64,000 nucleotides of DNA from SAR202 cluster bacterium bin22 (GTDB lineage: Bacteria; Chloroflexota; Dehalococcoidia; Lucifugimonadales; UBA3495), in assembly GCA_002238505.1 (NCBI GenBank), contig MPMM01000010.1, positions 1-64,000 on the forward strand, given 5' to 3'. Under the pieces are notes generated by a model. It had not been told where the DNA came from, did not search any database, and saw only the letters and a program-made list of their open reading frames with translations. Position 1 is the first letter of the stretch. The number at the start of each line of letters is the position of its first letter. The translations under genes were made by a program, and so were the position numbers. Below, piece by piece: positions 3,568 through 27,085 of the stretch.

Positions 3568-3703
3568 TCCAGGATGACACCATTATATAACGGCGAAGTT
3601 CCCCCACCGCCCCGGCTTTACCGGGCAATCGCGTCCCAAACTCAATCCATATGAGGCCTACACCCCCCCCAAGCCATAACCCATGTCGCCCTGAGCCTTA
3701 GTT

Positions 3704-13749: not shown

Positions 13750-14940
13750 ATGATTACCAAATTTGGCAGCCTGTTTGCCGGGCACGTGGACTTTGAAGAT
13801 ATCGGGCTGGACGCCACCGCGTTGAATGACCGCTGGCTGCCGGACGAGCATCTGGCCACCGTTTTCGACAAGGCGGAGGCCATTGCCGGCGTGATGGACC
13901 GGCTGGACTACGAGACTTTCTGGATGGCCGAGCACCATTTCCAGCGAGAAGGGTACGAGTGCATCCCTAATCTGATGCTGTTTGCCGTCCATCTGGCCCA
14001 CCTGACCAAGAAGCTCAAGATCGGATGCGGCTTCAACATCGCTCCCATGTGGAACCCCCTGCGGATGGCGGAAGACTACGCCACCGCCGACATTCTGACC
14101 GACGGCCGCGTGGTGTTCGGCGTGGGCCGGGGATACCACACCCGCGAAGTCGAAACCTTTGACGCCCCGATAATTGACCAGGACGCCAACCGCGAGCTGT
14201 TTGAGGAGCAGGTGGAGGTGATGTTCAAGGCCTTCAACGAGCGCTCCTTCTCCCACCACGGCAAGCACTACAACATCCCGCCCGACGTACCCTACCGTGG
14301 CTACGACCTTAAGGAAATTACCCTGGTTCCTCGCCCCAAATACCTGCCGGTAGAGTGCTACCAGCCGGTGGTGGGCGGCAGCCAGCGCGCCATGGACTTC
14401 ATGGTCAAGCACGGCATCAAGGGCATGATCGGCGGCGGGGCGGCGGCCGGCGGCGCTACCCTGGATGTGGTGCGCAGATGGCAGGAAACCCTGGCCAGGG
14501 CCGGCAAGGAGACCGAACTGGGCGGAGACCTCATTATCGGGTTCTCCATTCACCTCGCCGATACCGAGGAAAAGGGCATGAACGAGGCCAGGCTGTTCTT
14601 CGAAGAGAACATGAAGATGTTCGCGCCCCTGGGCTTCTTCCACGGCCTGTCTGACGACCAGCTAATTGCCCTCGGCGACCCCTCCCGGGCGCGTTCCGCC
14701 GGACTGCCGACAATCGAGGACGGCGTCCGTGCCGGCTCCTGGCTATGCGGCCCTCCGGAACTGGTGGCGGAAAAACTCAACAAAATCCAGGAAATGTACC
14801 CCGGCCTGACCCAGATTAACGTGGGTTCGGTGGTGGGCACCCCGCAAAAAGTCATCCTGGAACAACTGGAATGGTTCGGCAAAGAGGTCATGCCCCAGTT
14901 CAAGGCCCAGGCCAACGTGGCCGTCCCGGCCGACAACTAG
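13750..14940 (+). CDS. LLM class flavin-dependent oxidoreductase
   Basis: A 396-residue luciferase-like monooxygenase. Landmarks are Y-E-T-F-W-M-A-E-H-H-F (about 56-66), G-C-G-F-N-I-A-P-M-W-N-P-L-R (about 94-107) and D-I-L-T-D-G-R-V-V-F-G-V-G-R-G-Y (about 115-130). It belongs to a different branch from the 11.9-kb paralogue, with longer loops. GGAGGGG lies 6 bases before the ATG, and a TATAAT box stands at 13701-13706 about 45 bases before the start. Cytosolic FMN enzyme; substrate unknown. The stop at 14938-14940 abuts a repeat array. Confidence 0.88.
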   Translation: MITKFGSLFAGHVDFEDIGLDATALNDRWLPDEHLATVFDKAEAIAGVMDRLDYETFWMAEHHFQREGYECIPNLMLFAVHLAHLTKKLKIGCGFNIAPMWNPLRMAEDYATADILTDGRVVFGVGRGYHTREVETFDAPIIDQDANRELFEEQVEVMFKAFNERSFSHHGKHYNIPPDVPYRGYDLKEITLVPRPKYLPVECYQPVVGGSQRAMDFMVKHGIKGMIGGGAAAGGATLDVVRRWQETLARAGKETELGGDLIIGFSIHLADTEEKGMNEARLFFEENMKMFAPLGFFHGLSDDQLIALGDPSRARSAGLPTIEDGVRAGSWLCGPPELVAEKLNKIQEMYPGLTQINVGSVVGTPQKVILEQLEWFGKEVMPQFKAQANVAVPADN

Positions 14941-14954
14941 CACCCGACCAAACA

Positions 14955-15153
14955 ATCCCTTCCCCCTCGACGGGGGAAAGACCAGCATGGGTCCGACGCG
15001 CCCCAACAAAATAATCCCTTCCCCCTTGAAGGGGGAAGGTTAGGATGGGGGTGACGCCCTCCAACCAAAACTCCCTTCCCCCCTACGGGGAAACGCCAGG
15101 ATGGGGCCGACGTGCCCCAACCAAATAATCCCTTCCCCCTCGACGGGGGAACG
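14955..15153. repeat. array of ~58-bp degenerate repeats (left part)
   Basis: Four units of the form AATCCCTTCCCCCTCGACGG, a GG(A/T)-rich spacer, GGATGGGGCCGACG and a CCCCAACC tail. The array continues at 26761; the transposon 15154-26760 interrupts one unit precisely. Confidence 0.8.
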
Positions 15154-15232
15154 CGGGTTTGCTCCAAAAAGCCATTTTGCTCCAATAATCAGAAGCTTGC
15201 TCCAATAAGGCCGATGTGATTATGCATCGTCC

Positions 15233-15326
15233 ACTTTTTTGTCGAAACTCACTTGACCCGCCTACTTACCATAGATAGTAGGGGCATCAGTCTCCTGTTC
15301 GACTGAACGCCCCTCTATCTCTACGA
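15233..15326 (+). repeat. 94-bp direct repeat R1 (promoter-bearing)
   Basis: Nearly identical to 17750-17843. It contains TTGACC (15253-15258), 17 bases, TAGTAG (15276-15281), a weak promoter pattern. Downstream sequence diverges after CTCTATCTCTACGA, so the leader RNA seen after R2 is missing here. The rest of 15174-15375 has only TTGCTCC subterminal repeats. Confidence 0.7.
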
Positions 15327-15375
15327 GGCAAGTGCAAAACTCCACGGCACATAGTTGATTGACGCTTCTGCTGCC

Positions 15376-15624
15376 TTAAGAAACAAGACGCCCATCAATA
15401 ACGACTTGTCCGCTACACGACTGTAGTACGACTTGCCCACTGTGTCTGGTCACTACGACCTGTCCACTGCAATCTTCAACTACCGTCTGCCCACTGCCTT
15501 GCTTCACAATTATCTGACCGCTAGCTCTCTCGAAAGTCACTTTACCACTACCGGAGCTAACAACCCAGTTACCCTCTGCGTCTATTTCAAGAGTTCTATC
15601 CGAGTCAGGGAAAGTGTATTTCAT
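15376..15624 (-). CDS. short SGQ-repeat protein, unknown function
   Basis: 82 residues. The second half is made of five repeats of about nine residues beginning S-G-Q followed by alternating hydrophobic residues (S-G-Q-I-I-V, S-G-Q-T-V-V, S-G-Q-V-V-V, S-G-Q-V-V-L, S-G-Q-V-V-I), which predicts a small beta-solenoid or stacked hairpins. The first half includes D-R-T-L-E-I-D-A-E-G-N-W. No signal peptide. AGGAGGG lies 5 bases before the ATG. It is the leftmost gene of the transposon, convergent with the promoter repeat R1. I do not recognise the family. Confidence 0.6.
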   Translation of the reverse strand: MKYTFPDSDRTLEIDAEGNWVVSSGSGKVTFERASGQIIVKQGSGQTVVEDCSGQVVVTRHSGQVVLQSCSGQVVIDGRLVS

Positions 15625-15964
15625 ATCGCCCTCCTAGGTTTTGCAGAATACAGACAGGTCAAAATTTACCCTTAATCTAATCATACCAAGTTTAACCAAG
15701 AGGGCGGGTATGCAAAGGGCCGGCTTTGCTGAAAAAGTCGTTACCGATGCATAAGTCGCCAAACTGATGAAAAAGTCCCGTTTGAACCGCCACGTCAACT
15801 TTGGCGGGGAGGTTGATTTTGCCCAGTTCTCTCCATAGGTTTGGTTAAGCTACTTCAGGTGAAGCCACTGACCCTAACTACCCTGTGGTTCTATTGTCGC
15901 CAGTGCATTTATTTATCAATTGTTCATTGGTTGTTATGCCGTCCACGGTATTGGAAATGGTTCT
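15625..15964. other. intergenic region inside the transposon
   Basis: No convincing gene. A segment near 15730-15790 has two copies of a GAAAAAGTC block. It probably holds the promoter of the SGQ-repeat gene and the end of the HNH gene transcript. Confidence 0.4.
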
Positions 15965-17032
15965 TCAGCGTGAAATCAAAGACAGTTGGGGCATCACATC
16001 ACCGATTGGTACATAAGAATCTCCCCCAAACTCACACCAGCATCCCTCGCTTCGATTATGGGTATGCTTCCGTTTTCGCACCTGTTGGACACCCCCGGCC
16101 CAATCAGCAATCAAGGGCCGTAAGCTTGCGTGTCCGTTTTCTACGTTGTCTATGATTCGTTGTAGGCCGTCACTGTCCATTGCATACCAGCGTCCAAAAA
16201 AGGTGTAGTTCAGGTCAGCCCAAAAATCTGTTTTGCCCAAGTAATTTGCGCACCGCCACAATTTCTTGCAAGTTCGGCACTCAAACACCGCCGATTCTCC
16301 GGGTAAATCTGCCTTACTGACCAAGACAGCGACCTTCCCGCAGAAAACACAGGATGCCGAATCGCTATCAGCCCAAAGGGTGCTTTCCACTACTGGCAAA
16401 AGGATGTCCACTATAAGCTGGAATCCTTCCCGTTTATGAAGGGCTCTCTGTATCCGGTTCAACTTAACCCTAAAGTCGCTGTCACTTAACGCATTCTTGC
16501 TAGTGTTGCACAGGGAACAAGTCAGATGGATATTGCCCTCAATTGTTTCTCCACCTTGGACTAATGGAACGATGTGGTCACGGTGATACTTTCTCCCTTC
16601 ACTGAACGGACTACCCTTGCCCTTTAGCTCTGCTTGGCAGTACGCACACCGCCATTCTTGGCGTTCACCGATGGCGAGGATGTTTATTTTGCTTAATTGG
16701 TATCTTTCCCTTTGTTTAGCCGCATTTTCGACGTTGATGTTCAAGCGCATCGGATGCCACTTGGGGAAAGCCTTGCGCCGTTGGAAGGTAACCCCCGCCC
16801 AAATACGGAAGACAGAGAGCGGGTATATGCCGAGTTCTTCAGCTAATTCCTCAACTCTCTGTGGGGAAGGTGGCCCCATTGGAAGTTGCTCTCTAATCTC
16901 TGCTACATCGTCATCTGACAGTCTGTTCCTTTCCCTTCGGCTAAACGTGTGATGCCATTCTGCCTGCAATAACTCCCAATGGGTTGATGCTTCGTATTTT
17001 GAATGTTCATCAGGGCTACCCACACCAGTCAT
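15965..17032 (-). CDS. HNH endonuclease with C-terminal zinc ribbon
   Basis: 355 residues. The nuclease core is W-R-C-A-Y-C ... Y-H-R-D-H-I-V-P-L-V-Q-G-G ... N-I-H-L-T-C-S-L-C-N-T-S-K-N, a complete C-x2-C HNH metal-finger fold with His-Asp-His-Ile at the active site. Upstream is a helix-turn-helix-like segment (V-E-E-L-A-E-E-L-G-I-Y-P-L-S-V), downstream a second zinc ribbon (C-V-F-C ... C-R-T-C-K-K-L-W-R-C). The start at 17032 follows AAGGGG by 8 bases; a longer frame to 17155 would run into a TTGCTCC end repeat and lacks a ribosome site. It probably cuts DNA, either in homing/transposition or in defence. The stop is TGA, followed by 23 further open codons. Confidence 0.82.
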   Translation of the reverse strand: MTGVGSPDEHSKYEASTHWELLQAEWHHTFSRRERNRLSDDDVAEIREQLPMGPPSPQRVEELAEELGIYPLSVFRIWAGVTFQRRKAFPKWHPMRLNINVENAAKQRERYQLSKINILAIGERQEWRCAYCQAELKGKGSPFSEGRKYHRDHIVPLVQGGETIEGNIHLTCSLCNTSKNALSDSDFRVKLNRIQRALHKREGFQLIVDILLPVVESTLWADSDSASCVFCGKVAVLVSKADLPGESAVFECRTCKKLWRCANYLGKTDFWADLNYTFFGRWYAMDSDGLQRIIDNVENGHASLRPLIADWAGGVQQVRKRKHTHNRSEGCWCEFGGDSYVPIGDVMPQLSLISR

Positions 17033-17194
17033 TTTCTTACCCCTTGTATCCGTCAAATCATTTGTCTCAAACCGCACACCAAAGGGCATACGGCGATTTG
17101 CTCCAATAATTGCTAGTTTGGCCGATGCACGGAACAACCGTAGCTGGGTGTCCACGCTAGTCGGTCGGTCGAGAGAAGTGGAAGATTCACACGC

Positions 17195-17476
17195 CTAAAT
17201 GCCCAAGAATGGTTTTTGCTCCGGTGTAGGTTCAGGACGAAGGGACGACTGGTACTGCTGTAGTCCCCCAATATTACCCTCGCTTCGAGTCCATTTGAGA
17301 CTACAGTTATCACACTGAAGGCGTGTCAACTTGCGCCAATTACCTCTCAAGGGAACGTCTTTATTTTCGTCCAAAATGCATAGTTCCTGAAGACCCCTAA
17401 CGTGCGTCTGTTGGGAAATATCTCTCTCATATTGCTTCAGACGGGATATGCAATCTGAACAAGGTTCCCAAGTCAT
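17195..17476 (-). CDS. small zinc-ribbon-like protein
   Basis: 93 residues starting M-T-W-E-P-C-S-D-C. Two C-x2-C pairs (C-S-D-C near the N-terminus and C-D-N-C near residue 69) suggest one structural zinc site. The ATG at 17476 follows AAGGAAGGTGGAG; a longer frame to 17605 would cross a 14-bp palindrome and has no ribosome site. The family is not recognised. It lies upstream of the HNH gene on the same strand and could be its partner in a two-gene unit, but the 162-base gap holds an end-type repeat, so this is uncertain. Confidence 0.5.
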   Translation of the reverse strand: MTWEPCSDCISRLKQYERDISQQTHVRGLQELCILDENKDVPLRGNWRKLTRLQCDNCSLKWTRSEGNIGGLQQYQSSLRPEPTPEQKPFLGI

Positions 17477-17507
17477 AGCTCCACCTTCCTTGTATCCATA
17501 CTCATGG

Positions 17508-17541
17508 TAAAAGCTGCGGTGTGTGACCACCGCAGCTTTTA
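17508..17541. terminator. 14-bp palindrome, bidirectional terminator-like
   Basis: Perfect stem 17508-17521 with 17528-17541 (TAAAAGCTGCGGTG and its complement), A/T-rich at both feet. It lies 31 bases upstream of the small zinc-ribbon gene, so on the minus strand it could act as an attenuator or end an upstream transcript. Confidence 0.5.
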
Positions 17542-17716
17542 CTATGCCGGTAGCTAAGAGAAATGGCAAGGAAAAGTGAAGGGGCCAGACATTCACTCGT
17601 CCCAAACTCGATGCACCAAAATAGACTTGTGGCCGCTACACTGTCATTCTCAACCCTGCTATTTCCCCCTACCAAGAGTGATTGATGCCCAGCGTGTACT
17701 TCGCCCCAACACGAGC

Positions 17717-17757
17717 AAAGTTGCGGGGCAGAATTTACACTGCCCCGCAACTTTTTT
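17717..17757 (+). terminator. intrinsic terminator before promoter repeat R2
   Basis: A 14-bp stem (17717-17730 with 17741-17754) runs into TTTTTT. It insulates the following promoter; no plus-strand gene between 17542 and 17716 can be supported. Confidence 0.7.
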
Positions 17758-17843
17758 GTCGAAACTCATTTGACCCGCCCACTTACCATAGATATTAGGG
17801 GCATCAGTCTCCCGTTTGACTGAACGCTCCTCTATCTCTACGA
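17750..17843 (+). repeat. 94-bp direct repeat R2 with promoter
   Basis: Second copy of 15233-15326. TTGACC (17770-17775), 17 bases, TATTAG (17793-17798) forms the likely promoter for the lipoprotein gene at 18012. Its -10 is nearer consensus than that of R1. Confidence 0.65.
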
Positions 17844-18004
17844 TGGCACTTGCGACGGTTGCCCTTTCAACGCCTTGGTAAGTAGGAACCCTTCGGTGAA
17901 GCTTTTGCTGTTTAGGACGGCACGTTTTTTCGTGCCCTCTTTGCGGTTCATCGTTGGGTTTGTGCAACCGTCGCAAGTGCCAATCCTTAACTCCGCAAAG
18001 GGGG
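17844..18004 (+). ncRNA. structured 5' leader, candidate cis-regulatory RNA
   Basis: A perfect 19-bp long-range stem pairs 17844-17862 with 17964-17982 and closes a ~100-base domain. Inside is a GGCACG/CGTGCC hairpin with a T6 loop (17919-17936). Immediately beside it 17935-17946 can pair over 12 positions (one G-U) with 17993-18004, which contains the GGGGG ribosome site of the gene at 18012. The two states are topologically in conflict, as in switches that hide a ribosome site. No known riboswitch class is recognised. Positions are read from sequence; the switching is inference. Confidence 0.55.
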
Positions 18005-18011
18005 TTCCCTT

Positions 18012-18671
18012 ATGGCTCGTTATATCCCCAGCATTTGGCTCTTGTCTCTGGCCCTGCTTCTCTCCGCCTGTAGCACAGCTCCGCCCCCAGCACCTACCCC
18101 CGACATTCCCGCCACCGTGACCGCCCAAGTCCAAGAGCAATTGGCTACCAAGCCAACGTCCACCCCAGTCCCTACTACCACACCCAATCCTACCTTGGAA
18201 CCCAAACCTGCCTACAAGCGCATCCCCAAGGGCTACCCTTACACGATAAACGTACCCGCCGATTGGCAATCAAAAGTGAACAACGCCGATAACTGGGCCG
18301 AATACGTCTTTGGCGACCCGGATAGCTACTCAGCCACAATCAGGGTGACTGTTGGACGCTCCGGTGGCCCTTTACCCTTTGACTCAGAAACTCTCGCAGA
18401 TATTACGCTGGAAGAGTTGGAAGGTAATTCAGTAGAGGACAGTTTCCAGCTTAAGGAACGGCGCACTTTGGCCGATGGTGGAGTATGGCTATCTGTTAGC
18501 TTTCGGAAAATGCATCTTTGTCAGCGTGAGGCGGTGGCTCTGGTGCTGGTGTTGCCAAGATATGCTTTCATGGTTGAAGGGGCTACGTGTGAGGACGAAT
18601 GGGACGAGTACGAAATCCTGATGGTGGAAGCGGTAGAAAGTTTTGCTTTTGAGCCCGGTTCTTGGCGTTGA
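18012..18671 (+). CDS. lipoprotein with Pro/Thr stalk
   Basis: 219 residues. A type II signal peptide ends in the lipobox L-L-S-A-C (Cys about 20), then a Pro/Thr-rich linker containing P-D-I-P-A-T-V-T-A-Q-V, then a globular domain (Y-T-I-N-V-P-A-D-W ... V-E-S-F-A-F-E-P) resembling small PsbP/DUF-type stress domains only in outline. Anchored to the outer face of the membrane. The ribosome site GGGGG ends 7 bases before the ATG and can be masked by the leader RNA. The stalk motif also occurs in the chromosomal lipoproteins at 36-40 kb. TGA stop; a large terminator follows at 18813. The function is unknown. Confidence 0.75.
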   Translation: MARYIPSIWLLSLALLLSACSTAPPPAPTPDIPATVTAQVQEQLATKPTSTPVPTTTPNPTLEPKPAYKRIPKGYPYTINVPADWQSKVNNADNWAEYVFGDPDSYSATIRVTVGRSGGPLPFDSETLADITLEELEGNSVEDSFQLKERRTLADGGVWLSVSFRKMHLCQREAVALVLVLPRYAFMVEGATCEDEWDEYEILMVEAVESFAFEPGSWR

Positions 18672-18812
18672 CGAGCGAAGCCCTGACACCGGATGCCCCC
18701 TAAAGACGTCCCGCCAAATCCGGCGGGGCGGTTCATATATTGACCTTCATAGGAATAGTAGGTATCATCAACTTCATAACCTAATCTGCCGCCTCGTGCG
18801 GTTTTGTTGGAG

Positions 18813-18872
18813 CAAATGAATGTGGAGCAACCCCCAGTGATTGGGGGGCCACTATCATTTGCTTATTTTTTT
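18813..18872 (+). terminator. long hairpin terminator after lipoprotein gene
   Basis: Nested stems CAAATGA/TCATTTG, GTGG/CCAC and CCCCCA/TGGGGG are followed by CTTATTTTTTT. The left arm overlaps two inverted copies of the transposon end motif TTGCTCC. It lies in the otherwise empty 18672-18953 gap. Confidence 0.7.
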
Positions 18873-18953
18873 GTCAAACAACTAAGGGTTTCTTGGGTTC
18901 GGCTCACATTAGGCAGAAATCCCAACTTCGAGTAGTGGTAAAGGGTGAGTGAG

Positions 18954-21257
18954 ATGAAAAACAGGTCAAGAGCTTGGCTGTCAATGCTGATATTCCTGTT
19001 GGCGGTGGTGTTTGCCCTTGGCGCACTGGCGATAGCGGGTGACCAAAAGACGAAACAAGGGCCGCAGGGCGCATTTACCGAAGCCGTTTATTCGTGTGCC
19101 AAGCAGGAAACCAACTCATCGGGCCAAACGGTGTTTGTTGCGCCGGACAGAATACCGGACGGGCTATTCACCTATGACGTAAGCACGAAAGACTTTATTG
19201 GCGGGGCGATTAGCCTTCCGAGAGTTGATTCCATTCCCGCCGGTAGTGATTTGCCGGACGGCGGACGGCCCGGTTGGTATTTCCGGTCTGCGCCGTTGTG
19301 TAACCGTGATGCCAGTGCAGGGACTACGGATTCTCTCTGGCTTTCGACCTTCACCGTTGACCCACTGCAAACCCCTGAATCAATGCCCGTGTCATTCAGC
19401 CCGCCGTTTCGGGCTGGGGCTAGAGGGCCGCAAGGCCCACAGGGACTTTACCCAATCTATGCTTATGCCCAGCAAACTGCGGGGCAAACAGTTTCAAGAG
19501 GGCAACTGCCCACTGAATGGGCGATAGACCTTACCACGGGGGAGATAAGTGGCTTAAACGGACACTGGGCACCGAATCCCTTCCAAGTCAATGCCAATGC
19601 GGTTCTTTGGACTACGTTCACCATCGTCAATCCGGCGCAATGGCCGGGATTGGCAAATATTGACGAAACGAATACCTGTACGGATAGCACATCGGCAACA
19701 ACGTGCGAGACTACCCAAACCCGCTATTGGAGTACGCCGATTCAATGGTCTGGCACACCGGGGGCGGCGGGCGCACCGGGTAGTAGTGGCATTCAGGGAG
19801 TCACTGCGGGTACAGGCTTGTCCGGCGGTGGTTCATCCGGCGTAGTCACCCTAGACATAGAGACTCCCTACACGCCGGACGAACAAAACAAGCTTGCTGG
19901 TATCGAGGATGAAGCCACACGGGTTGAAGCCAACCCAATCGTGGGAACAAGCCAAGTTTCTTCCACGAACCTCAATCTGCTTGAAGTAAGCGGGCAGTAT
20001 TACAACCTCCCTGCTGGAGAACAGGGTAAACAGGGGCGGTACCGGATTGAGATATACGGTGAAGCTCCGGCAAACTCACCGCTGACCGCCCCAATTGGCG
20101 GGCAGGTGAACGTCCAGACGGCCCAAGTTACCGCCCCTCCCGATACGGCTGTCCAAATCCTTGGTTCAGCGTGGTCTGTAGAGCTTTTCCCCCTTGCCGA
20201 CCCGGTGAACAACGTCCTGTGGATTAGCACGTATTGGGTGAATCCACAATTCCAAAGCGGCGTACTCACGCCAAACTGGAGTACGCCTGTCGTTTCCGGG
20301 GAGCTTGGCCCACAGGGATTGCAGGGTGAAGTTGGATTATCGGTTCAGCCGATGTTCCTTGAGACTGCTACTCAACCCACCAAGCCGGACATAGCCTACG
20401 CTTCAAACCATACCTTCACATCCACGCCGACCGGCTGGAACGTCAACCCGCCGCCCACTCCCTCAGACCCAATTTGGCTAATTCTGGTTAGGCATCAAGT
20501 TGGCGTCTTTACGGCCTCGATTGACCCGAACCTGATAACAACTCCAATCAAGGTGTCCGGTACGGATGGGCAGGAAGGGGATTCAGGATGGAGTCCGCAA
20601 TTTGCCATAGTAGCGGACGGTGACCGGCGGGTACTGCAAATTACCGGCTGGACGGGCGGTACTGGAACTGCCCCGGCTTCCGGCCTGTACGTGGGCGCTA
20701 CTGCCCTTGTTTCAAGTCTGGCGGACGGCGTTGACATACGAGGGCCATCCGGGGCGGGAAACGAGCGGGAGATTCTGCTTGACGAACTGGACGATGCTAC
20801 GGGCCGCAACCTGCGGGTTACCCAAACGAACTTCGCCCAATTCGATTCTTCTCATCAAGGGTATTTCTCCTTCCGCCCCATCACGGAAGCCGATTTGGGA
20901 AAAGACCTGCTTTGGTATGGCAAATTCGATGTGATAGGCGGGACCAATGACGGGACCCTGCTGGAAGACCGAATTTGGCACGTCAGGATTCCGGTTGAAG
21001 TCTATCTCCAGATGGGCATCGTTACGCCCGCAAGCGTTGACCCCATCGACAATGTGTTTATGAAGTCAACATCTCGCATCGGCATTGACTTCATCAGTCG
21101 CAATGAGCAAAGCACGATATATGTAGCCCGAATCTCACAAGAAACGGTTGATGGGGAAACTTTCGACCGCATCGCTGTGAGCATCGCAAAGAGGGTAAAC
21201 GTAACTGGCAACGTTTATAGGGTCACAGCCTTTAAGACTGCCATAGTTTTGCGGTAA
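18954..21257 (+). CDS. large secreted repeat protein with collagen-like segments
   Basis: 767 residues. One N-terminal membrane helix (L-S-M-L-I-F-L-L-A-V-V-F-A-L-G) anchors or exports it. Short collagen-type triplets G-P-Q-G-P-Q-G, G-A-P-G and G-L-Q-G-E-V-G separate beta-rich modules that share the pattern L-W-(x)-S/T-T-(x3)-V-N/D-P followed by a Trp-Ser-T/P strand; at least four such modules can be seen. The layout resembles phage tail fibres and bacterial surface adhesins. The ATG at 18954 is preceded by AAAGGG; a GTG three codons earlier is less well placed. The gene is the largest cargo of the transposon and follows a lipoprotein, so a cell-surface role is likely. Confidence 0.72.
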   Translation: MKNRSRAWLSMLIFLLAVVFALGALAIAGDQKTKQGPQGAFTEAVYSCAKQETNSSGQTVFVAPDRIPDGLFTYDVSTKDFIGGAISLPRVDSIPAGSDLPDGGRPGWYFRSAPLCNRDASAGTTDSLWLSTFTVDPLQTPESMPVSFSPPFRAGARGPQGPQGLYPIYAYAQQTAGQTVSRGQLPTEWAIDLTTGEISGLNGHWAPNPFQVNANAVLWTTFTIVNPAQWPGLANIDETNTCTDSTSATTCETTQTRYWSTPIQWSGTPGAAGAPGSSGIQGVTAGTGLSGGGSSGVVTLDIETPYTPDEQNKLAGIEDEATRVEANPIVGTSQVSSTNLNLLEVSGQYYNLPAGEQGKQGRYRIEIYGEAPANSPLTAPIGGQVNVQTAQVTAPPDTAVQILGSAWSVELFPLADPVNNVLWISTYWVNPQFQSGVLTPNWSTPVVSGELGPQGLQGEVGLSVQPMFLETATQPTKPDIAYASNHTFTSTPTGWNVNPPPTPSDPIWLILVRHQVGVFTASIDPNLITTPIKVSGTDGQEGDSGWSPQFAIVADGDRRVLQITGWTGGTGTAPASGLYVGATALVSSLADGVDIRGPSGAGNEREILLDELDDATGRNLRVTQTNFAQFDSSHQGYFSFRPITEADLGKDLLWYGKFDVIGGTNDGTLLEDRIWHVRIPVEVYLQMGIVTPASVDPIDNVFMKSTSRIGIDFISRNEQSTIYVARISQETVDGETFDRIAVSIAKRVNVTGNVYRVTAFKTAIVLR

Positions 21258-21332
21258 ACCCCGTTCCACCCGCTAATGGTTTCTGCGTCAGGTGAGGCCA
21301 GACGCAAATCTGCTGACTGCAAGGGAGTGTCT

Positions 21333-21821
21333 ATGCGACCCGCTTTAATGGCCCTTATATTTCTGGTTCTGGCATTCTCAATGGCTTGCATAGCTCCGGC
21401 AACACCCACCCCTTCGCCGCCACCAACTACTAGCCCGCCACTGAAACCTTTGAAGGTAGTAATGCCTACACCGGAGCCGCCCGCCACCGACGCAGAAAAA
21501 CTCGCATTGGGTACCTTGGCCGAAAAAACTGCGAAGGGGCTGTATGAAATCCGAGAGGAATGCGTTAGCCAGGAAATAACGGGGAAGCTCTCCCTGAATG
21601 TTGCAGAACTATTCATCAAAGGGGAGGCCATCTACGAGACCATCGCAATGGAAATAGAAGCATTCGATGTGGCCCACGGAAGCGATTTAAGTGATATAAC
21701 GACACCGCAAAAGTTTAACGACCTGCTTACACTCACTCTCGCAATGGAATACGCCGCTTTAAGGCTTGAGGCAATTTGCGGTCAACCAGTAGGGGACGAG
21801 CAAGAGCAAGATGGAGAATAA
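21333..21821 (+). CDS. small lipoprotein
   Basis: 162 residues. The signal peptide M-R-P-A-L-M-A-L-I-F-L-V-L-A ends in the lipobox F-S-M-A-C; a Pro/Thr linker (about 22-52) leads to a helical domain rich in Ala, Glu and Leu with two further Cys (E-E-C-V and A-I-C-G). AAGGGAGTG precedes the ATG at 21333; a start 19 codons earlier would place the signal peptide internally. It lies 75 bases after the large secreted protein and ends at a strong terminator, so the three surface proteins (18012, 18954, 21333) form one functional block. No recognised family. Confidence 0.7.
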   Translation: MRPALMALIFLVLAFSMACIAPATPTPSPPPTTSPPLKPLKVVMPTPEPPATDAEKLALGTLAEKTAKGLYEIREECVSQEITGKLSLNVAELFIKGEAIYETIAMEIEAFDVAHGSDLSDITTPQKFNDLLTLTLAMEYAALRLEAICGQPVGDEQEQDGE

Positions 21822-21825
21822 ACAA

Positions 21826-21855
21826 CAAGGCCGGGGCATTTAAGCCCCGGCCTTG
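21826..21855. terminator. bidirectional intrinsic terminator
   Basis: A perfect 12-bp stem (21826-21837 with 21844-21855) lies between the converging genes that end at 21821 and 21876. Confidence 0.75.
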
Positions 21856-21875
21856 TGCTGGTGTGCCACTTTTGC

Positions 21876-22079
21876 TTACTCCACTCTTTCCTCTAAATGG
21901 GCAGAATAGTCCATTGCTTCCATCAAGTCTGCTACACGAGTAACTACTTTACCATTGTGCCGTATTTCCCAATGCGGCGGAACCATATTCATAGGAACAG
22001 CAACCAAAGTGAAATTCCCTCTGGTGTACGCTGGCTTGCCTTCTAATTCTTGCTGTGTCCACTTACTCTCAGTTGTCAC
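21876..22079 (-). CDS. small protein of unknown function
   Basis: 67 residues, soluble and acidic at the C-terminus. W-T-Q-Q-E-L-E-G-K-P-A-Y near the start and P-P-H-W-E-I-R-H-N-G-K-V-V-T-R-V in the middle suggest a small alpha/beta fold with a beta hairpin. Translation would start at GTG, with AGGAG 9 bases upstream. It lies opposite to the surface-protein operon and upstream of the tRNAs, inside the transposon. The family is not recognised; real coding is supported by the ribosome site and by the terminator shared with its neighbour. Confidence 0.5.
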   Translation of the reverse strand: MTTESKWTQQELEGKPAYTRGNFTLVAVPMNMVPPHWEIRHNGKVVTRVADLMEAMDYSAHLEERVE

Positions 22080-22274
22080 TTACAACGACTCCTTTCATTG
22101 TTTTTTCACGGTGACGCAACAGGGACTGCATTGACTCCTGGCTATTGCCGTCAGATTGTTGTAAAATTTATGCAATAAAAAGAACGGCGGGGCTAACCAT
22201 CGCAAAAGCAACCCCCGCCGTCTATACCTACCACCGCCAAACCAACAAAGGAGGTCTTGCAGCAGTTTTATCGT

Positions 22275-22347
22275 GGCCCCTTAGCTCAATGGATAGAGCA
22301 TCCCATTTGCGACGGGCAGGTTGTCGGTTCGAGTCCGACAGGGGCCA
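22275..22347 (+). tRNA. tRNA-like gene, anticodon most likely TGC, body Arg-like
   Basis: A 73-base cloverleaf: acceptor GGCCCCT/AGGGGCC, D-arm GCTC-AATGGATA-GAGC, T-arm GTCGG-TTCGAGT-CCGAC, discriminator A, no encoded CCA. The anticodon arm is poor: only CCC/GGG pairs, flanked by T-C and A-C mismatches, with loop TTTGCGA. Read symmetrically the anticodon is TGC (Ala), yet the G3-U70 alanine signal is absent and the body with A20 resembles bacterial arginine tRNAs. It may be decayed, or a chimera with odd charging. Confidence 0.65.
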
Positions 22348-22388
22348 CTCAATTTTAGGGGTTTGCACCCCCGCCAAATATGGTTTAC

Positions 22389-22481
22389 GGGTCAGTGGCA
22401 GAGAGGCCGATTGCGCCTGACTTCAAATCAGGTAGGGTGATAGCTCCACCCTCGCAGGTTCGAATCCTGTCTGACCCGCCA
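22389..22481 (+). tRNA. tRNA-Ser-type with anticodon TCA (opal suppressor)
   Basis: 93 bases with encoded CCA. Acceptor GGGTCAG/CTGACCC (7 bp), D-arm GCAG-AGAGGCCGA-TTGC, anticodon arm CCTGA-CTTCAAA-TCAGG, a long variable arm with a 6-bp stem AGGGTG/CACCCT, T-arm GCAGG-TTCGAAT-CCTGT, discriminator G. All arms are intact. The long variable arm and G73 are serine-tRNA features, and SerRS does not need the anticodon. The loop differs from the usual Ser(TGA) loop CTTGAAA by one base, giving TCA, which reads UGA. Selenocysteine tRNA was considered but needs an 8-bp acceptor stem and a 6-bp D stem. It should insert Ser at UGA codons. Confidence 0.82.
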
Positions 22482-22551
22482 GACCGCCTATTGACGGCCT
22501 ATCTCTATTATATAGACCTGCCAAGCAGATACAAGCAAGGGATGAAATACA

Positions 22552-23088
22552 ATGAATGAAAACAGCCGTGAAGGACAATATATTCCAACTGACCGGGCTT
22601 TCAATACCTTGAGCCAAAGAGCCGCTGATTTGGAAAGAGAAGCAAGAGCATTGCAAAAAGAAGCAGAGGCTTTGTGGATGAAGCGTGAAGGTGTACTGGA
22701 GTCCCTGCGCTGTCTTGAGGGTGAATCGGTGGACTTCGAAAATGCGGCCAACCAGCAAGCAGACGTTTCGACCCAATCCCCGCTGTTGCCAGAATCATTG
22801 AGTAATCTCACCGTTGAATTTGAAGGTGCCAAAACCTACAAAGAAAAGGTGTTAAGAGTGGCCGTTGCCGCTGGGAACGATGCGGTGCTAAACACAAGCG
22901 AAGTTGCGAGATTCTTGGAGGGTTGTGGGCAAACCACGTCATCGCTGGACAGCACTCGCACTTCAGTCCACAGGGCATTTGACGACCAACCGGAATTGTT
23001 TGAAAAGGTGGAAGAAGACAAGGGTAACTGGCGATTGATTCAACAAAGTGAGGATGTGCGGTATGACGAAGAATCAGACAATTACTAG
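22552..23088 (+). CDS. coiled-coil/winged-helix protein
   Basis: 178 residues. Residues about 18-60 form a coiled coil (L-S-Q-R-A-A-D-L-E-R-E-A-R-A-L-Q-K-E-A). Residues about 95-165 look like a winged helix (V-L-R-V-A-V-A-A-G ... L-N-T-S-E-V-A-R-F-L ... S-V-H-R-A-F-D-D ... G-N-W-R-L-I), the W-x-L ending being typical of such wings. Probably DNA binding and dimeric. AAGGGA lies about 10 bases before the ATG. It starts 71 bases after the suppressor tRNA and overlaps the next gene, so it heads the transposase operon and may regulate transposition or bind the ends. Confidence 0.6.
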   Translation: MNENSREGQYIPTDRAFNTLSQRAADLEREARALQKEAEALWMKREGVLESLRCLEGESVDFENAANQQADVSTQSPLLPESLSNLTVEFEGAKTYKEKVLRVAVAAGNDAVLNTSEVARFLEGCGQTTSSLDSTRTSVHRAFDDQPELFEKVEEDKGNWRLIQQSEDVRYDEESDNY

Positions 23089-23488
23089 AATAGACAAGGC
23101 GATGAAGAAATCCCAGACCCAGCGAGACGCCATTGATAATCAGTTGTTTGACCTGGCTGTGGCCCGCAACTACGCCCGCAAGTTTGCCAGAGACGAAGAA
23201 CGGGCGAGGACGGCAAACAACTTTGGCCCAACCAAGCGGGCCGTAGCCGATGCGATGTTTGAAGTCTTGCGGAAGGAACGTCCGCTACACCGGAAGGTGA
23301 TTCTGGAACGCATTCAGGCCAAGGGCGTCCCCATTGACTCCAAGAAGCCAGTGGACTACATCGCCCAACTGCTGACTCAGGACGCCAGTTTTGCACGGGA
23401 AGCAGGGATGCGAGGGTACTGGACGTTTTCCAACAGGGGCTTGGAAATGTGTCAAAACTCCTTGACAAGAAGAAGACAATTGACTTGA
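23063..23488 (+). CDS. HARE-HTH-like DNA-binding protein
   Basis: 141 residues. A basic helical N-terminus is followed by a C-terminal winged helix (about 65-130): A-V-A-D-A-M-F-E-V-L-R-K-E-R-P-L-H-R-K-V-I-L-E, then D-Y-I-A-Q-L-L-T-Q-D-A-S-F ... G-Y-W-T-F, matching the HARE-HTH pattern. The ATG at 23063 has GTGAGG 9 bases upstream and lies inside the end of the previous gene, implying coupled translation. The stop is TGA (23486-23488). Beyond it the same frame stays open through 24 codons into the transposase, so UGA read-through by the suppressor tRNA at 22389 would give a DNA-binding-domain/transposase fusion. Confidence 0.6.
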   Translation: MTKNQTITRIDKAMKKSQTQRDAIDNQLFDLAVARNYARKFARDEERARTANNFGPTKRAVADAMFEVLRKERPLHRKVILERIQAKGVPIDSKKPVDYIAQLLTQDASFAREAGMRGYWTFSNRGLEMCQNSLTRRRQLT

Positions 23489-23500
23489 GTACAACAAAAA

Positions 23501-23535
23501 GAAGCCGCCGAAGGCTGGAACCCTTCGACAGCTTC
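23501..23535 (+). promoter_or_regulatory. stem-loop 12 bases after an in-frame UGA
   Basis: GAAGC/GCTTC and CGAAGG/CCTTCG stems separated by a 3x3 internal loop, apical loop CTGGAAC. It stands between the UGA of the HTH gene and the transposase ATG. It may promote read-through, as stem-loops after leaky stops do, or shape access to the transposase ribosome site AGGGAGG at 23542-23548. Confidence 0.45.
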
Positions 23536-23560
23536 TACCAAAAGGGAGGATGATTCCCCT

Positions 23561-24985
23561 ATGGCTACTGATAATCTTAACAGCACAAGTCAAGCCTATA
23601 CCGACAAAAAACCCCGCAAGTCCCCGGCCAAGAGAATCAGATTGGCAACCGCACTCGGCCCCAGCGACCCTGACGATGGCGACATTGGACGCCAGCAAAG
23701 GGGCCTCGCTATAGCGGCACTTTCCACTGTCAAGAAAACCAAGGTAGGCTACAAAGTGCTTTCGCAGTCGGGCAACGGCACTTACGCTGTTCGCTTGGAC
23801 GGTGAATACGGCCCAGCTTGCGAATGCCCGGACTTCGATACTCGCAACGCCAAATGCAAGCACATTTACGCCGTAGAGCTTTACCAGATGCGGGAAGAAG
23901 ACCCTGCCACAAGTCCGGAATGGACTGATATGGCGCAGGAAGCGGAACCCGTCAAAAAGCCCACGTACTCGCAGGACTGGCCGGCCTACAATGCCGCCCA
24001 AAAGAATGAAAAAAGGGACTTCGGCAGGCTTCTCAGGGACTTATGCGATGTCATCGAACAACCAGCCCAAGGCCGGGGCCGTCCACGAATGCCAATGTCC
24101 GATATGGTGTTTGCCGTCACCACCAAAGTTTATTTGCTAATGTCAGCACGGCGGATAATGCCCGATATTGAAGACGCCACTGAAAAAGGGCAGATGGACA
24201 GGGCACCTTCCAGCACAAGTATTTGGCGGTATTTGGAGAAGCCAGAGTTGACCCCGATTCTAAAGTCGCTGGTCGAGCAAAGCGCACTTCCCCTGAAGGA
24301 CTTGGAAGACGACTTTGCGGCAGATTCAAGTGGGTTTGGAACCAGCGTGTATGACCGCCATTTTGAGGACAAATGGGGAGGCAATGCGGGCGAGGAAGGC
24401 AGACAGTACAATCCTCCGCACAAGCGGTCAAAGTACCTGATGGCTCACGTTGCCTGTGGGGTGCGCACCAACATAATCACCGCCGCTGTGGTCAGGACAG
24501 ACCGAAGGCACGACTCAGTGTTTTTTCCTGAATTGGTGGAGACCACTGCACGGAATTTCACAATTCGGGAGTTCTCGGCAGACAAGGCATATTCAACCAA
24601 GGATAACCTTGTTGCGGTGTTGGCGGCGGGCGGTACGCCCCTTATACCGTTCAAGAAAGACGCAAACCCGAACACTGGACACCACAAGAAAGACCCGGTG
24701 CGAGACAACCTTTGGGCCTTGATGTACCATTATTTCCACCTGCGGCGGAAAGCCTTCAATGACCGTTACCACAAGCGGTCTAACGTGGAGTCGTGCTTCC
24801 ACATGATGAAGTCGCAGTTTGGCGGGTTCGTCCGTAGCAAGACCCCTACAGCGCAGGTCAACGAAGTTTATGCCAAAATCCTGTGCCACAACATAGTGGT
24901 ACTGGTGAAGATGATGTACAAGCTCAAAATTGACCCGACTTTCGGCCTCAGCGAGGAACAAGTGGAGTTGCCGATGGCCGCATAG
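23561..24985 (+). CDS. tnp: SWIM zinc-finger DDE transposase
   Basis: 474 residues. A basic N-terminus leads to a SWIM finger (C-E-C-P-D-F-D ... C-K-H-I-Y-A-V-E, about 87-107), then a DDE nuclease of the IS4/IS5 type: first Asp in D-D-F-A-A-D-S-S-G-F-G, second in F-S-A-D-K-A-Y-S-T, and Glu in R-S-N-V-E-S-C-F-H-M-M-K-S-Q-F-G, the Y-R-E-K-like block. All three catalytic residues are present and the frame is intact, so it may be active. GGAGG ends 11 bases before the ATG, so independent initiation is possible. It is in frame with the preceding gene across one UGA. Three hairpins follow the stop. Confidence 0.88.
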   Translation: MATDNLNSTSQAYTDKKPRKSPAKRIRLATALGPSDPDDGDIGRQQRGLAIAALSTVKKTKVGYKVLSQSGNGTYAVRLDGEYGPACECPDFDTRNAKCKHIYAVELYQMREEDPATSPEWTDMAQEAEPVKKPTYSQDWPAYNAAQKNEKRDFGRLLRDLCDVIEQPAQGRGRPRMPMSDMVFAVTTKVYLLMSARRIMPDIEDATEKGQMDRAPSSTSIWRYLEKPELTPILKSLVEQSALPLKDLEDDFAADSSGFGTSVYDRHFEDKWGGNAGEEGRQYNPPHKRSKYLMAHVACGVRTNIITAAVVRTDRRHDSVFFPELVETTARNFTIREFSADKAYSTKDNLVAVLAAGGTPLIPFKKDANPNTGHHKKDPVRDNLWALMYHYFHLRRKAFNDRYHKRSNVESCFHMMKSQFGGFVRSKTPTAQVNEVYAKILCHNIVVLVKMMYKLKIDPTFGLSEEQVELPMAA

Positions 24986-25016
24986 CCTCGCCAGACAGTC
25001 AATACCCACGGAACAA

Positions 25017-25050
25017 GAAAGGCCCTGTGAATGGATTCGCCGGGCCTTTC
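25017..25050 (+). terminator. intrinsic terminator after transposase
   Basis: A 9-bp stem GAAAGGCCC/GGGCCTTTC followed by ACTTTG, 31 bases after the transposase stop. Confidence 0.65.
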
Positions 25051-25128
25051 ACTTTGCCTTGGTTTCAATTCAGAGGGAAGGCAAAAACTTCCCCCAGTGA
25101 GATAAACCACATAAGCTAGACAAAGCAA

Positions 25129-25162
25129 AAGGCCCTGCTGTCGGCAACAGCCACAGGGCCTT
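25129..25162 (+). terminator. second intrinsic terminator
   Basis: Stem AAGGCCCTG/CAGGGCCTT with an inner CTGT/ACAG stem, followed by CCTCTT. A third hairpin, AAGAG-CGGCTC/GAGCCG-CTCTT, lies at 25211-25239. Together they isolate the last genes of the transposon; nothing else is seen in 24986-25375. Confidence 0.6.
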
Positions 25163-25375
25163 CCTCTTGTGTCTTGACAGATAAGGGACTGCCCGGAAAC
25201 AATAGCAACGAAGAGACGGCTCTTGGGGAGCCGCCTCTTACACCAAACCGACCACCGGCTAAGGAAGGTTGCTGTTTGGCTATTTGATTTTCCGGGAATC
25301 CCCGGGTGCTTGTCAAGTAACCTTGTGCCCTTCCTGACATGTCGCCAGTGGTTGGTGGACTAAGGAGAGGCAGAT

Positions 25376-25453
25376 ATGGAAGGATTGGTTGTAGCTGTCG
25401 CTGGCTCGGTTATTGCCGTTTTGATAATCGCCAAAACCCTCAGCGGGCGGTAG
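25376..25453 (+). CDS. 25-residue hydrophobic peptide
   Basis: Twenty-five residues: M-E-G, a continuous hydrophobic stretch (L-V-V-A-V-A-G-S-V-I-A-V-L-I-I-A) and a polar tail K-T-L-S-G-R. It is a single membrane helix. AAGGAGAGG ends 5 bases before the ATG, a very strong ribosome site, which is the main reason to accept such a short gene. It precedes the nuclease gene by 57 bases on the same strand. Small membrane peptides of this kind can be type I toxins or membrane-protein partners; no antisense RNA was identified, so the function is open. Confidence 0.5.
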   Translation: MEGLVVAVAGSVIAVLIIAKTLSGR

Positions 25454-25510
25454 TGAAAGAGAAGGGTAGGGCGCATTATACAAACCATAAGGAAGAGAGG
25501 CTAATGACAC

Positions 25511-26434
25511 TTGGATACAAAACGATACGATGTGGGGAAATGGTACGAAAACCAGATAGACTACTTGCTTCGTCGCTCAGGACTCAACTTCTGCCAACAA
25601 CCTAAAATAGACAGGCATACGCCGGATTTCTTGATTTTTCAACCCAACGGGCCAGAAGTTATCATCGAGTGCAAGGCACGATACGACGGACAAGAGGATA
25701 GGACAAAATGTTTGGAATCCCAGCGAAAAGAAGCGGAAACCTTAAGGCGGATAGCTCGACGCAACATTGACCTTTATTCCCGCAGAGACCCTTTGGGAAA
25801 CAATGAGCTTAATTCCTATCTGCTCGATGGCGCCCGAATGGACTTGGAAAGGGCAGACGCTATGAAGAAAGGAGATTTTCATTCGTGTGGGGGAAATATC
25901 GGGGAGTTATTTGGGGGAGTATATGATGCCCTAAAAGAAAAGGCGAGAACATACAAGGGTATTACTGACGGCAAGCCGTATGTTATTGCTCTGTATCACG
26001 ATGCTTGTCAGGCAGACATTTCTACAGCCTTGTCACTCTGCTTTTCACCTCGTATTCCATCCATTTCATGGACGTATGAAGGGGATAATTTGGATAAGGA
26101 AATACATCTTGAGAGTAGATGGGTTGATGCGTGGTCTGTTGAAGAACAGGAAGGGATTTTTTATAAGTACAAGCACGTTTCAGGGCTAATCTATTCTGCA
26201 TGGGAGCGTAAACACTTCTTCCTTCCAAACCCATTTGCCCACATACCTGTTAGTGCTGACCTATTCCCTTTCACGAGCGTTCCTGATGCACCGCTACTAA
26301 ACGGTTCACCTGCATGGGTTCCTCGACAGGCCACCTTGACCGACGACTACTTACGTCCACCAAACACCTACTGGGGACTACTTGATTTGTTGTGTCAAGA
26401 TTTAAGGAACGAAATTAAGCGACGTGATGCGTAA
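25511..26434 (+). CDS. PD-(D/E)XK nuclease-like protein
   Basis: 307 residues. Near the N-terminus W-Y-E-N-Q-I-D-Y-L-L-R-R-S-G-L is followed by H-T-P-D-F-L-I-F-Q and V-I-I-E-C-K-A-R, spaced as the Asp and Glu-x-Lys of the PD-(D/E)XK nuclease fold (about residues 35-60). The remainder includes P-Y-V-I-A-L-Y-H-D-A. The likely start is TTG at 25511; an ATG seven bases earlier opens a different, short frame. It could be a restriction-type or repair nuclease carried as transposon cargo. No methylase accompanies it. It ends 326 bases before the right transposon end. Confidence 0.6.
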   Translation: MDTKRYDVGKWYENQIDYLLRRSGLNFCQQPKIDRHTPDFLIFQPNGPEVIIECKARYDGQEDRTKCLESQRKEAETLRRIARRNIDLYSRRDPLGNNELNSYLLDGARMDLERADAMKKGDFHSCGGNIGELFGGVYDALKEKARTYKGITDGKPYVIALYHDACQADISTALSLCFSPRIPSISWTYEGDNLDKEIHLESRWVDAWSVEEQEGIFYKYKHVSGLIYSAWERKHFFLPNPFAHIPVSADLFPFTSVPDAPLLNGSPAWVPRQATLTDDYLRPPNTYWGLLDLLCQDLRNEIKRRDA

Positions 26435-26515
26435 TTGTAGTCGTGGATGTATGGGAGCAAGGTTAGCGTCGATTGACGAGCGACAATCAAAGCCAACAAA
26501 GTGGAGGAGGGGTAT

Positions 26516-26596
26516 ATGATTAGAGTGAATTTCAATAATGAAAAAGGCCGGAGCGTCAAACCGCTCCGGCCTTCTTGTTGGTTCCCGGAAACCTAG
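26516..26596 (+). CDS. possible 26-residue peptide over the last terminator
   Basis: Starts M-I-R-V-N-F-N-N-E-K after GGAGGAGGGG, a strong ribosome site, and is read through the hairpin at 26544-26573. The hairpin spells part of the peptide (G-R-S-V-K-P-L-R-P). No known family. It could equally be a leader-type or chance frame. Confidence 0.25.
   Translation: MIRVNFNNEKGRSVKPLRPSCWFPET
26544..26573 (+). terminator. intrinsic terminator near right transposon end
   Basis: A perfect 12-bp stem AAGGCCGGAGCG/CGCTCCGGCCTT followed by CTTGTT. Confidence 0.7.
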
Positions 26597-26695
26597 CGGA
26601 CTATATCTCTTGAAAGTTTTTGCCCTCCCTCAAGTCAGAATCATCTTGTCCGGGTCGGGAAAGGCTGATAGGCTAGGAAAGTCCTCCTGTGCGTG

Positions 26696-26730
26696 TCTGC
26701 TCCTAAAATCTACCGTCTGCTCCTAAAATC
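26696..26730 (+). repeat. two subterminal repeats TCTGCTCCTAAAATC
   Basis: Direct copies at 26696-26710 and 26716-26730, 20 bases apart, just inside the right inverted repeat. They resemble the TTGCTCCAATAA repeats inside the left end and are probable transposase-binding sites. Confidence 0.55.
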
Positions 26731-26760
26731 GGTTGAATCGGGCTTTTTGGAGCAAACCCG

Positions 26761-27085
26761 GGGAACGCCAGGATGGGGCCGACGCCCTCCAACCAAAACT
26801 CCCTTCCCCCCTGACGGGGAAACGCCAGGATGGGGCCGACGTACCTCAACCAAATAATCCCTTCCCCCTCGAAGGGGGAGGGTTAGGATGGGGGGGCGGC
26901 CCTCCAACCAAAACTCCCTTCCCCCCCGAGGGGGGGGGGGGTGTGGTGGGGGGGTAACGCCCTCCAACCAAAACTCCCTTCCCCCTCGACGGGGAACGAC
27001 AGGATGGGGCCGACGTACCCCAACAAGATAATCCCTTCCCCCTCGACGGGGGAAGGTTAGGATGGGGGTGACGCCCTGCCAGCAG
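26761..27085. repeat. array of ~58-bp degenerate repeats (right part)
   Basis: Continues the array from 14955-15153 with about five more units (CCCTTCCCCC...GGGG, GGATGGGG, GCCCTCCAACC). Long minus-strand frames across it are compositional and are not called as genes. Confidence 0.8.

Follow-up and report, generated by a model that had tools for sequence, protein, structure and literature searches.

The stretch analysed here, 64,000 nucleotides (nt) of contig MPMM01000010.1 from SAR202 cluster bacterium bin22 and hereafter called the window, contains an 11.6-kb element with inverted-repeat ends, a transposase gene and, upstream of it, two transfer RNA (tRNA) genes. This arrangement raises two questions: to what kind of transposon does the element belong, and why are tRNA genes found beside its transposase? 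The structural answer is firm: the element is an intact cargo transposon, and it belongs to a family with a tRNA slot upstream of the transposase and on the same strand. That it is a transposon and a member of this family is practically certain, and the slot tRNAs are very likely a real, selected component. The explanation as a whole, that is, a widespread DDE transposon with slot tRNAs and a proposed reading of UGA codons in the window's clade, I consider probable.

The element and its family

A preliminary description had proposed a transposon with perfect 20-bp ends and a 7-bp target duplication. The inverted pair in question, CGGGTTTGCTCCAAAAAGCC at 15154-15173 (+) and 26741-26760 (-), is the only such pair in the window even at 3 mismatches, and no match was obtained in 100 shuffles with 3 mismatches allowed, which confirms a real transposon with perfect ends. 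In the 20-bp reading, GGGAACG adjoins both sides. Moving the ends inward by 1 bp yields GGGTTTGC... ends and lengthens the duplication to GGGGAACGC (15146-15154 and 26760-26768). The best reading is a 19-bp perfect inverted repeat with a 9-bp duplication, which replaces the 20/7 reading and defines a DDE transposon of 11,605 bp (15155-26759). It was chosen because of the family data: relatives have GGCTTTGC consensus ends, and their duplications are 9 bp long in 59/65 resolved elements and 10 bp in 6/65 (58 and 6 of the 64 unique rows). The twentieth base pair matches by chance, owing to the target duplication. The left repeat GGGTTTGCTCCAAAAAGCC, located by the inverted-repeat search, thus occupies 15155-15173 (+), preceded by a duplication placed by the family rule of 9-10 bp, and the right repeat occupies 26741-26759 (-), followed by its 9-bp duplication. 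Removal of the element restores one repeat unit of the array around it, as had been claimed: the joined flanks match array units without gaps at 43/50 positions (the best, with the unit at 15016), 42/50 and 41/50. The GC content falls from ~0.60 outside the element to ~0.50 inside. The target itself lies between genes and consists of CCCTTCCCCCTCGACGGGGGAA-type units in tandem (14940-15150 and 26760-27080).

The transposase (474 amino acids; 23561-24985, +; TAG stop) is intact, as had been noted, and combines a SWIM zinc finger (Pfam 7.9e-5) with a DDE_Tnp_1 domain (Pfam 1.5e-18). It falls below every cut-off of the NCBIfam insertion sequence (IS) models, the best match being transpos_IS5_2 (5.5e-29; 101.5 vs 140 bits). 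The earlier statement that the element matches no transposon that can be named holds in this respect, but the element does belong to a large family, spread over many phyla, with the same ends. The window's transposase is homologous to those of its relatives across the SWIM and DDE domains. In 65 of 120 oriented rows (112 distinct relatives after removal of 8 duplicate rows), GGCTTTG-type repeats bracket the transposase and an exact duplication adjoins them; no duplication was obtained when the flanks were displaced by 12 bases. The majority family end is GGCTTTGCCCAAAAAG, with element-specific inner bases in the pattern GGCTTTGC...AAAA, and the window's ends GGGTTTGCTCCAAAAAG, with the 9-bp GGGGAACGC, agree with both the family end and the family duplication. 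Relatives with different ends would have spoken against the preliminary description; what they have is the same end pattern with inner bases of their own, and the proposal stands. A search for related ends found no second copy of the element's ends in the 4.39-Mb host assembly, while family-type ends turned up in many phyla. Recent movement, also proposed earlier, is plausible from the perfect repeats and the duplication; no second copy, sequenced empty allele or sister insertion was found.

Each element repeats its own end core near its ends. Within 2 x 200 nt near the ends, the own 7-base core occurs 43 times family-wide, vs 3.4 copies expected from element interiors; cores borrowed from other elements gave a mean of 6.5 and a maximum of 16 in 200 draws. 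In the window the core TTGCTCC is present twice on the left (at 15177 and 15197, within 15175-15203, +), and the repeats GTCTGCTCCTAAAATC lie twice on the right (26695-26730, +). The subterminal cores are probably transposase binding sites, the specificity of which would drift with the enzyme.

Resolved elements measure 2.1-8.4 kb (median ~4.1 kb), as seen within flanks of ~6 kb only, which limits the detectable length; the window's copy, at 11.6 kb, is the longest. Because of these sizes cargo is the rule in the family, and the presence of cargo, the size of which had been regarded as a misfit, is nothing unusual. The family is little described yet widespread across bacterial and archaeal phyla. 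The host genome contains one further family transposase (48% identity). Relatives were found in 19/99 genomes of the host's relatives (its own genome included), 15/50 genomes of a sample of its taxonomic family, 33/393 genomes of a class sample (mostly strong, many weak) and, at E 1e-40, 6/400 genomes of a phylum sample. The genome_contigs collection yielded 224 confirmed stretches, of which 79 loci were kept, an uneven sample drawn from the best 80 of the 224, and IMG/VR yielded 16 relatives. According to the genome_contigs records, hosts include Chloroflexota, Acidobacteria, Planctomycetes, Verrucomicrobia, Actinobacteria, Rokubacteria, Eremiobacterota and several archaea. Annotated plasmids and phages gave IS5-like matches only, with ~25% identity and lacking the N terminus. 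At one locus from a genome of the window's genus (L044, 1852-6933, -), two family transposases, which share 46-48% identity with that of the window, occur within a distance of 4 kb; one of them has neither accessory open reading frame (ORF) nor tRNA.

tRNA genes in a slot upstream of the transposase

The preliminary description had missed both tRNA genes of the element, which were detected by ARAGORN and Rfam at 22275-22348 (+) and 22389-22481 (+). They lie 1079-1212 nt from the transposase because two accessory ORFs intervene. To what extent is this position shared? Counting the window, the slot holds a tRNA-like gene in 21/112 distinct loci (19%): the window, L043, L062 (the same as L042), L074, L080, L082, L084, L088, L092, L102, L105, L120, L121, L122, L123, L132, L134, L139, L148, L255 and L259. 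With ARAGORN, 13 of the 79 genome_contigs loci have a same-strand tRNA at most 700 nt upstream of the transposase, with five tRNAs elsewhere. Since 0.17 were expected (Poisson P 1e-20), a chance neighbourhood was rejected. A covariance model and a cloverleaf scanner added L122, L043, L092 and L102, and further locus sets added L148, L255 and L259; a search with a second model gave no additional slot carriers. In all 13 carriers with resolved ends the tRNA lies inside the ends.

Carriers are scattered, with at least 17 changes on a transposase tree of 104 rows (those under 300 amino acids being left out) that includes 21 carriers. Every member of one Acidobacteria group (L084, L092, L102, L105 and L121) is a carrier. 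The window's closest relatives, L062 and L043, also have UCA tRNAs upstream of the transposase. Slot anticodons include UCA, GUC, GCA, CGC, UUA, UAA, GAG, AGC, GAC and CGU, and that of L259 was read as UAU. Some of the tRNAs have Ser-like bodies with UCA, GCA or UAA anticodons; those of the Acidobacteria relatives L084, L092 and L121 are of the 9/3 form, with CCA and non-serine anticodons; L043 and L255 have 71-nt forms poor in the D arm.

Not counted as carriers were L107/L050 (degenerate, 17.5 bits), L098, L104 and L263. The tRNAs near L098 and L263 lie outside the element ends; the L263 element sits on a large viral contig, flanked on either side by part of a phage tRNA array (2834-3946 and 9673-10003). 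At L104, an 8/4 allo-tRNA-like gene (7632-7704) is found 389 nt downstream of the transposase, outside the slot. A short zinc-ribbon ORF lies on the opposite strand between slot and transposase in L105 (5703-5864, -), L084, L088, L102, L121 and L123, and across the family a zinc-ribbon motif occurs upstream on the minus strand in 38/120 rows, vs 11 matches over three control regions.

An opal tRNA that is likely charged with serine

The window's second tRNA (22389-22481) is of type II, with a UCA (opal) anticodon, a long variable arm, 7/5 acceptor/T stems, G73 and an encoded CCA. Its closest host tRNA is Ser(UGA), with 66/80 aligned bases in common. Assignment as tRNA-Sec was rejected, with an RF01852 score of 42.6 bits against a gathering cut-off of 47 and a 7/5 branch in place of the required 13 bp. 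The host has a separate selC (C16:857700), which scores 67.5 bits with RF01852, as well as SelA, so that the UCA tRNA of the element is surplus. The UCA anticodon is absent among the 51 other host tRNAs listed. A UCA anticodon on an intact non-Sec body qualifies this tRNA, at the sequence level, as an opal suppressor. Charging with serine is likely because SerRS recognises the long variable arm and does not depend on the anticodon. The other tRNA (22275-22348), a type I tRNA-like gene called 'Ala' (TGC) by ARAGORN, lacks the G3:U70 Ala identity pair and has an imperfect anticodon stem; its closest host tRNA is an Arg tRNA (56/73).

Are these RNAs maintained as tRNAs? Between the UCA tRNAs of the window and L062 there are six double compensatory pair changes in the acceptor and anticodon stems, without a single change or a broken pair, and both have the anticodon loop CTTCAAA. 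The 9/3 tRNAs of L084 and L121 likewise differ by seven double changes in the acceptor and anticodon stems, with no pair broken. Because compensatory changes have occurred without broken pairs, these comparisons of sequence show that the UCA and the 9/3 RNAs have been kept as tRNAs, with stems under selection.

Possible reading of UGA between an accessory ORF and the transposase

Where might an opal tRNA be used? Of the two accessory ORFs that separate the tRNA genes from the transposase, OrfX (22552-23088, +; 178 amino acids; TAG stop) has a homologue in L043 (37% over 79 amino acids, 2e-13) and is in another frame than the transposase. OrfH (23048-23488, +), with a homologue in L042 (8e-18) and a weak HARE-HTH match (Pfam 7e-5, below the curated cut-off), is in the transposase frame: it stops at a TGA (23486-23488), beyond which the frame continues into the transposase without a further stop. 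Comparison of OrfX and OrfH with the window's clade was possible in 5/120 rows only. The in-frame stops between accessory ORF and transposase are two TGAs in L062, one TGA in L043 and one TAG in L044b, and each of the UCA carriers (window, L043 and L062) has an in-frame accessory ORF with TGA only in between. Six of eight accessory ORFs are in frame (window OrfH, L062, L043, L044b, L054 and L056; P 0.02 vs 1/3).

I propose that a single transposase moves the element, probably by binding the terminal and subterminal TTGCNNN cores, and that the opal tRNA would be charged, most likely with serine, and read a codon mismatched to its amino-acid identity. In the window's clade its likeliest use would be occasional reading of the UGA at 23486-23488, so that some OrfH-transposase fusion would be made in addition to the transposase translated from its own start. 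In IS3-type elements, frameshifting yields OrfA, OrfB and OrfAB. The logic of the OrfA-OrfAB frameshifting of IS3 and IS1 would recur here if a helix-turn-helix-like ORF at the N terminus were fused to the transposase in some products, with the difference that the window's element would use stop readthrough. Fusion of OrfH and transposase by readthrough is a fair hypothesis; suppressor-assisted readthrough in the window's clade, taken for itself, is tentative and rather unlikely.

Several observations weigh against the proposal. No tRNA was detected in 91/112 relatives, and the anticodon stem of the window's own type I tRNA is poor. The accessory ORFs of L063 and L055 are out of frame, as is OrfX; in L042 readthrough would require two suppressions; L044b has a TAG yet no tRNA. 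Every transposase comes with its own ATG and a plausible ribosome site. Finally, most slot tRNAs have sense anticodons and occur in elements without an accessory ORF. That all slot tRNAs serve UGA suppression was rejected on account of these mostly sense anticodons, with no stop suitably placed; in L088, whose anticodon is UUA, no in-frame UAA divides two ORFs. In sense-anticodon carriers the tRNA must have another or a broader role. No natural OrfH-transposase fusion devoid of the stop was seen among the loci inspected. Support from L054-L056 is doubtful because a conserved RNA-like block intervenes and L055 is out of frame. In this divergent subgroup (L054, L055 and L056) the block, which is promoter-like and RNA-like (TGGTACAAT...GTCCCCAGTGGC...), separates the accessory ORF from the transposase and is located ~390 to 100 nt ahead of the latter; no fitting Rfam family was found for it among matches up to E 1.

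Alternative explanations

The alternative that survives best, possible if somewhat unlikely, is that OrfH and the transposase are two translationally coupled genes and that the UCA tRNA travels along as a selfish passenger that causes mistranslation, inserting serine at UGA, Cys or Leu codons, and is unconnected with the transposase. Ribosome sites do precede the transposase ATG, Ser-like bodies are combined with UCA, GCA and UAA anticodons, and UGA is a common stop, used by 55/209 host genes over 400 kb (a figure preferred to the very low share of 4/32 in the window). The linker speaks against this alternative. In the four closest accessory-ORF elements the linkers, of 25-50 codons, are open and in frame, with a joint chance of ~8e-5 under an empirical null from 111 other rows that was set up post hoc and excludes L063, an out-of-frame member of the same clade. 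Linker residues are also conserved between the window and L042.

Alternatively, the slot RNA might not decode at all: a tRNA-like structure would control the transposase or its zinc-ribbon neighbour, as a processing site, an antisense RNA, a terminator or an RNA bound by the transposase. Position and strand are fixed beside the transposase, several carriers have the opposite-strand zinc-ribbon ORF between slot and transposase, and a poor anticodon arm in several slot RNAs, together with the D-arm-poor 71-nt forms of L043 and L255, points in the same direction. However, the anticodon stems of the UCA and 9/3 RNAs co-vary and their loops keep U33 and seven nucleotides, none of which a processing signal needs, and many slot tRNAs encode CCA. 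I regard this explanation as unlikely.

Phage tRNAs have been proposed to replace or distract tRNAs hit by anticodon nucleases, and the slot tRNAs might similarly be counter-defence genes or decoys against such host enzymes. The diversity of anticodons is in keeping with this, as are anticodon loops and stems that are the most variable parts while acceptor and T arms remain intact; the 17 or more changes of the trait on the tree are what locally useful cargo would give. The anticodons, however, often mismatch the tRNA body (Ser-like with Cys, Leu or stop anticodons), and a role as decoys is unlikely.

That the transposon merely lies beside, or has captured, host tRNA genes that are now decaying is highly improbable and largely contradicted already: L263 in its phage tRNA array, the degenerate tRNA-like sequence of L107/L050 and several imperfect anticodon stems would suit such an accident, but the L263 tRNAs are outside the ends whereas slot tRNAs are inside, slot and strand are constant across phyla (at the P value given above), and compensatory changes have left no pair broken.

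Relation to known systems

The catalytic domain resembles those of IS5/IS4/IS1182-type elements, being a DDE_Tnp_1 domain with transpos_IS5_2 as its best NCBIfam match; the window's family differs by an extra N-terminal SWIM finger, duplications of 9-10 bp and multi-kb cargo. The NCBIfam cut-off of IS5 was not reached (see above), nor were those of IS1182 (43.1 vs 270 bits), IS4 (27.8 vs 115) and ISNCY (24.5 vs 325). Mutator-like/IS256 transposons are SWIM-bearing and make 8-9 bp duplications, and the window's element has a SWIM finger, a 9-bp duplication and subterminal repeats. This affiliation is nevertheless not borne out: no Mutator/MULE domain is present among Pfam matches up to 0.1, and the DDE domain is DDE_Tnp_1. 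A Tn7-like element was rejected as well, with TnsA-like matches of 0.022-0.029 for the protein at 25511-26434 as the only sign and neither TnsB nor TnsC among the ten ORFs scanned.

It is well established that mobile elements target tRNA genes and that phages carry such genes as cargo, suppressor tRNAs included. The window's element resembles such phages as a mobile element with its own stop-codon tRNA, and differs in that the tRNA is on a DDE transposon beside the transposase and its suppression is predicted. No description of a transposon family with a fixed tRNA slot by the transposase was found in a search of 5.39 million open papers, which took in little of the subscription literature.

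The closest parallel is with allo-tRNAs. The parts of a review considered here (PMC7609411) give the 9/3 form as a hallmark and UAU as the most abundant group, and mention tandem irregular tRNAs in soil RNA, one allo-tRNA pseudogene that overlaps an ORF related to transposons, and the conjecture that RNAs of this kind accompany transposable elements. The relatives L084, L092 and L121, with 9/3 tRNAs, CCA and non-serine anticodons, and L259, with an anticodon read as UAU, fit these accounts. The window's UCA tRNA, with its 7/5 form, is neither 8/4 nor 9/3, and those parts of the review give no transposon family, ends or slot (PMC7609411). Allo-tRNAs had so far been orphans, with no more than hints of a link to transposons.

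With the slot, allo-tRNAs and irregular soil tRNAs gain a genomic home, and their function can be tested against a defined genetic background. Now that this widespread family has defined ends and a defined duplication, its insertions and cargo can be mapped. Codon recoding may also serve this transposon as a means of control. The furthest-reaching version, speculative and on balance unlikely, is that off-identity tRNAs, encoded by the elements themselves, are working parts of a DDE family spanning bacteria and archaea, that in the window's clade an opal tRNA-Ser drives the reading of a programmed UGA between a DNA-binding N-terminal ORF and the transposase, partly rewriting the code to control the transposase, and that the family is the natural home of some orphan allo-tRNAs.

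Cargo genes

The left part of the element encodes a small ORF of 82 amino acids without confident family (15376-15624, -) and a 396-amino-acid protein with an HNH endonuclease domain (15965-17155, -; Pfam HNH 1.1e-8). Further cargo consists of a putative lipoprotein of 219 amino acids, with a signal-like N terminus and no confident family (18012-18671, +), a 770-amino-acid protein with collagen-like GPQGPQG stretches and no Pfam family (18945-21257, +), and a second putative lipoprotein, of 181 amino acids (21276-21821, +). Downstream of the transposase lies a PD-(D/E)XK-like protein of 307 amino acids (25511-26434, +), with Pfam TnsA_N at 0.022 and NCBIfam TnsA-like at 0.029, both far below cut-off. 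A 94-nt direct repeat with 94% identity (15233-15326 and 17750-17843) brackets the HNH-containing left cargo; the 2.5-kb block between its copies looks as if it had been brought in as a cassette. Small relatives (L049, 7629-10935; L048; L050) contain, as judged by eye, other cargo: DNA methyltransferase-like, DUF488-like and helix-turn-helix proteins.

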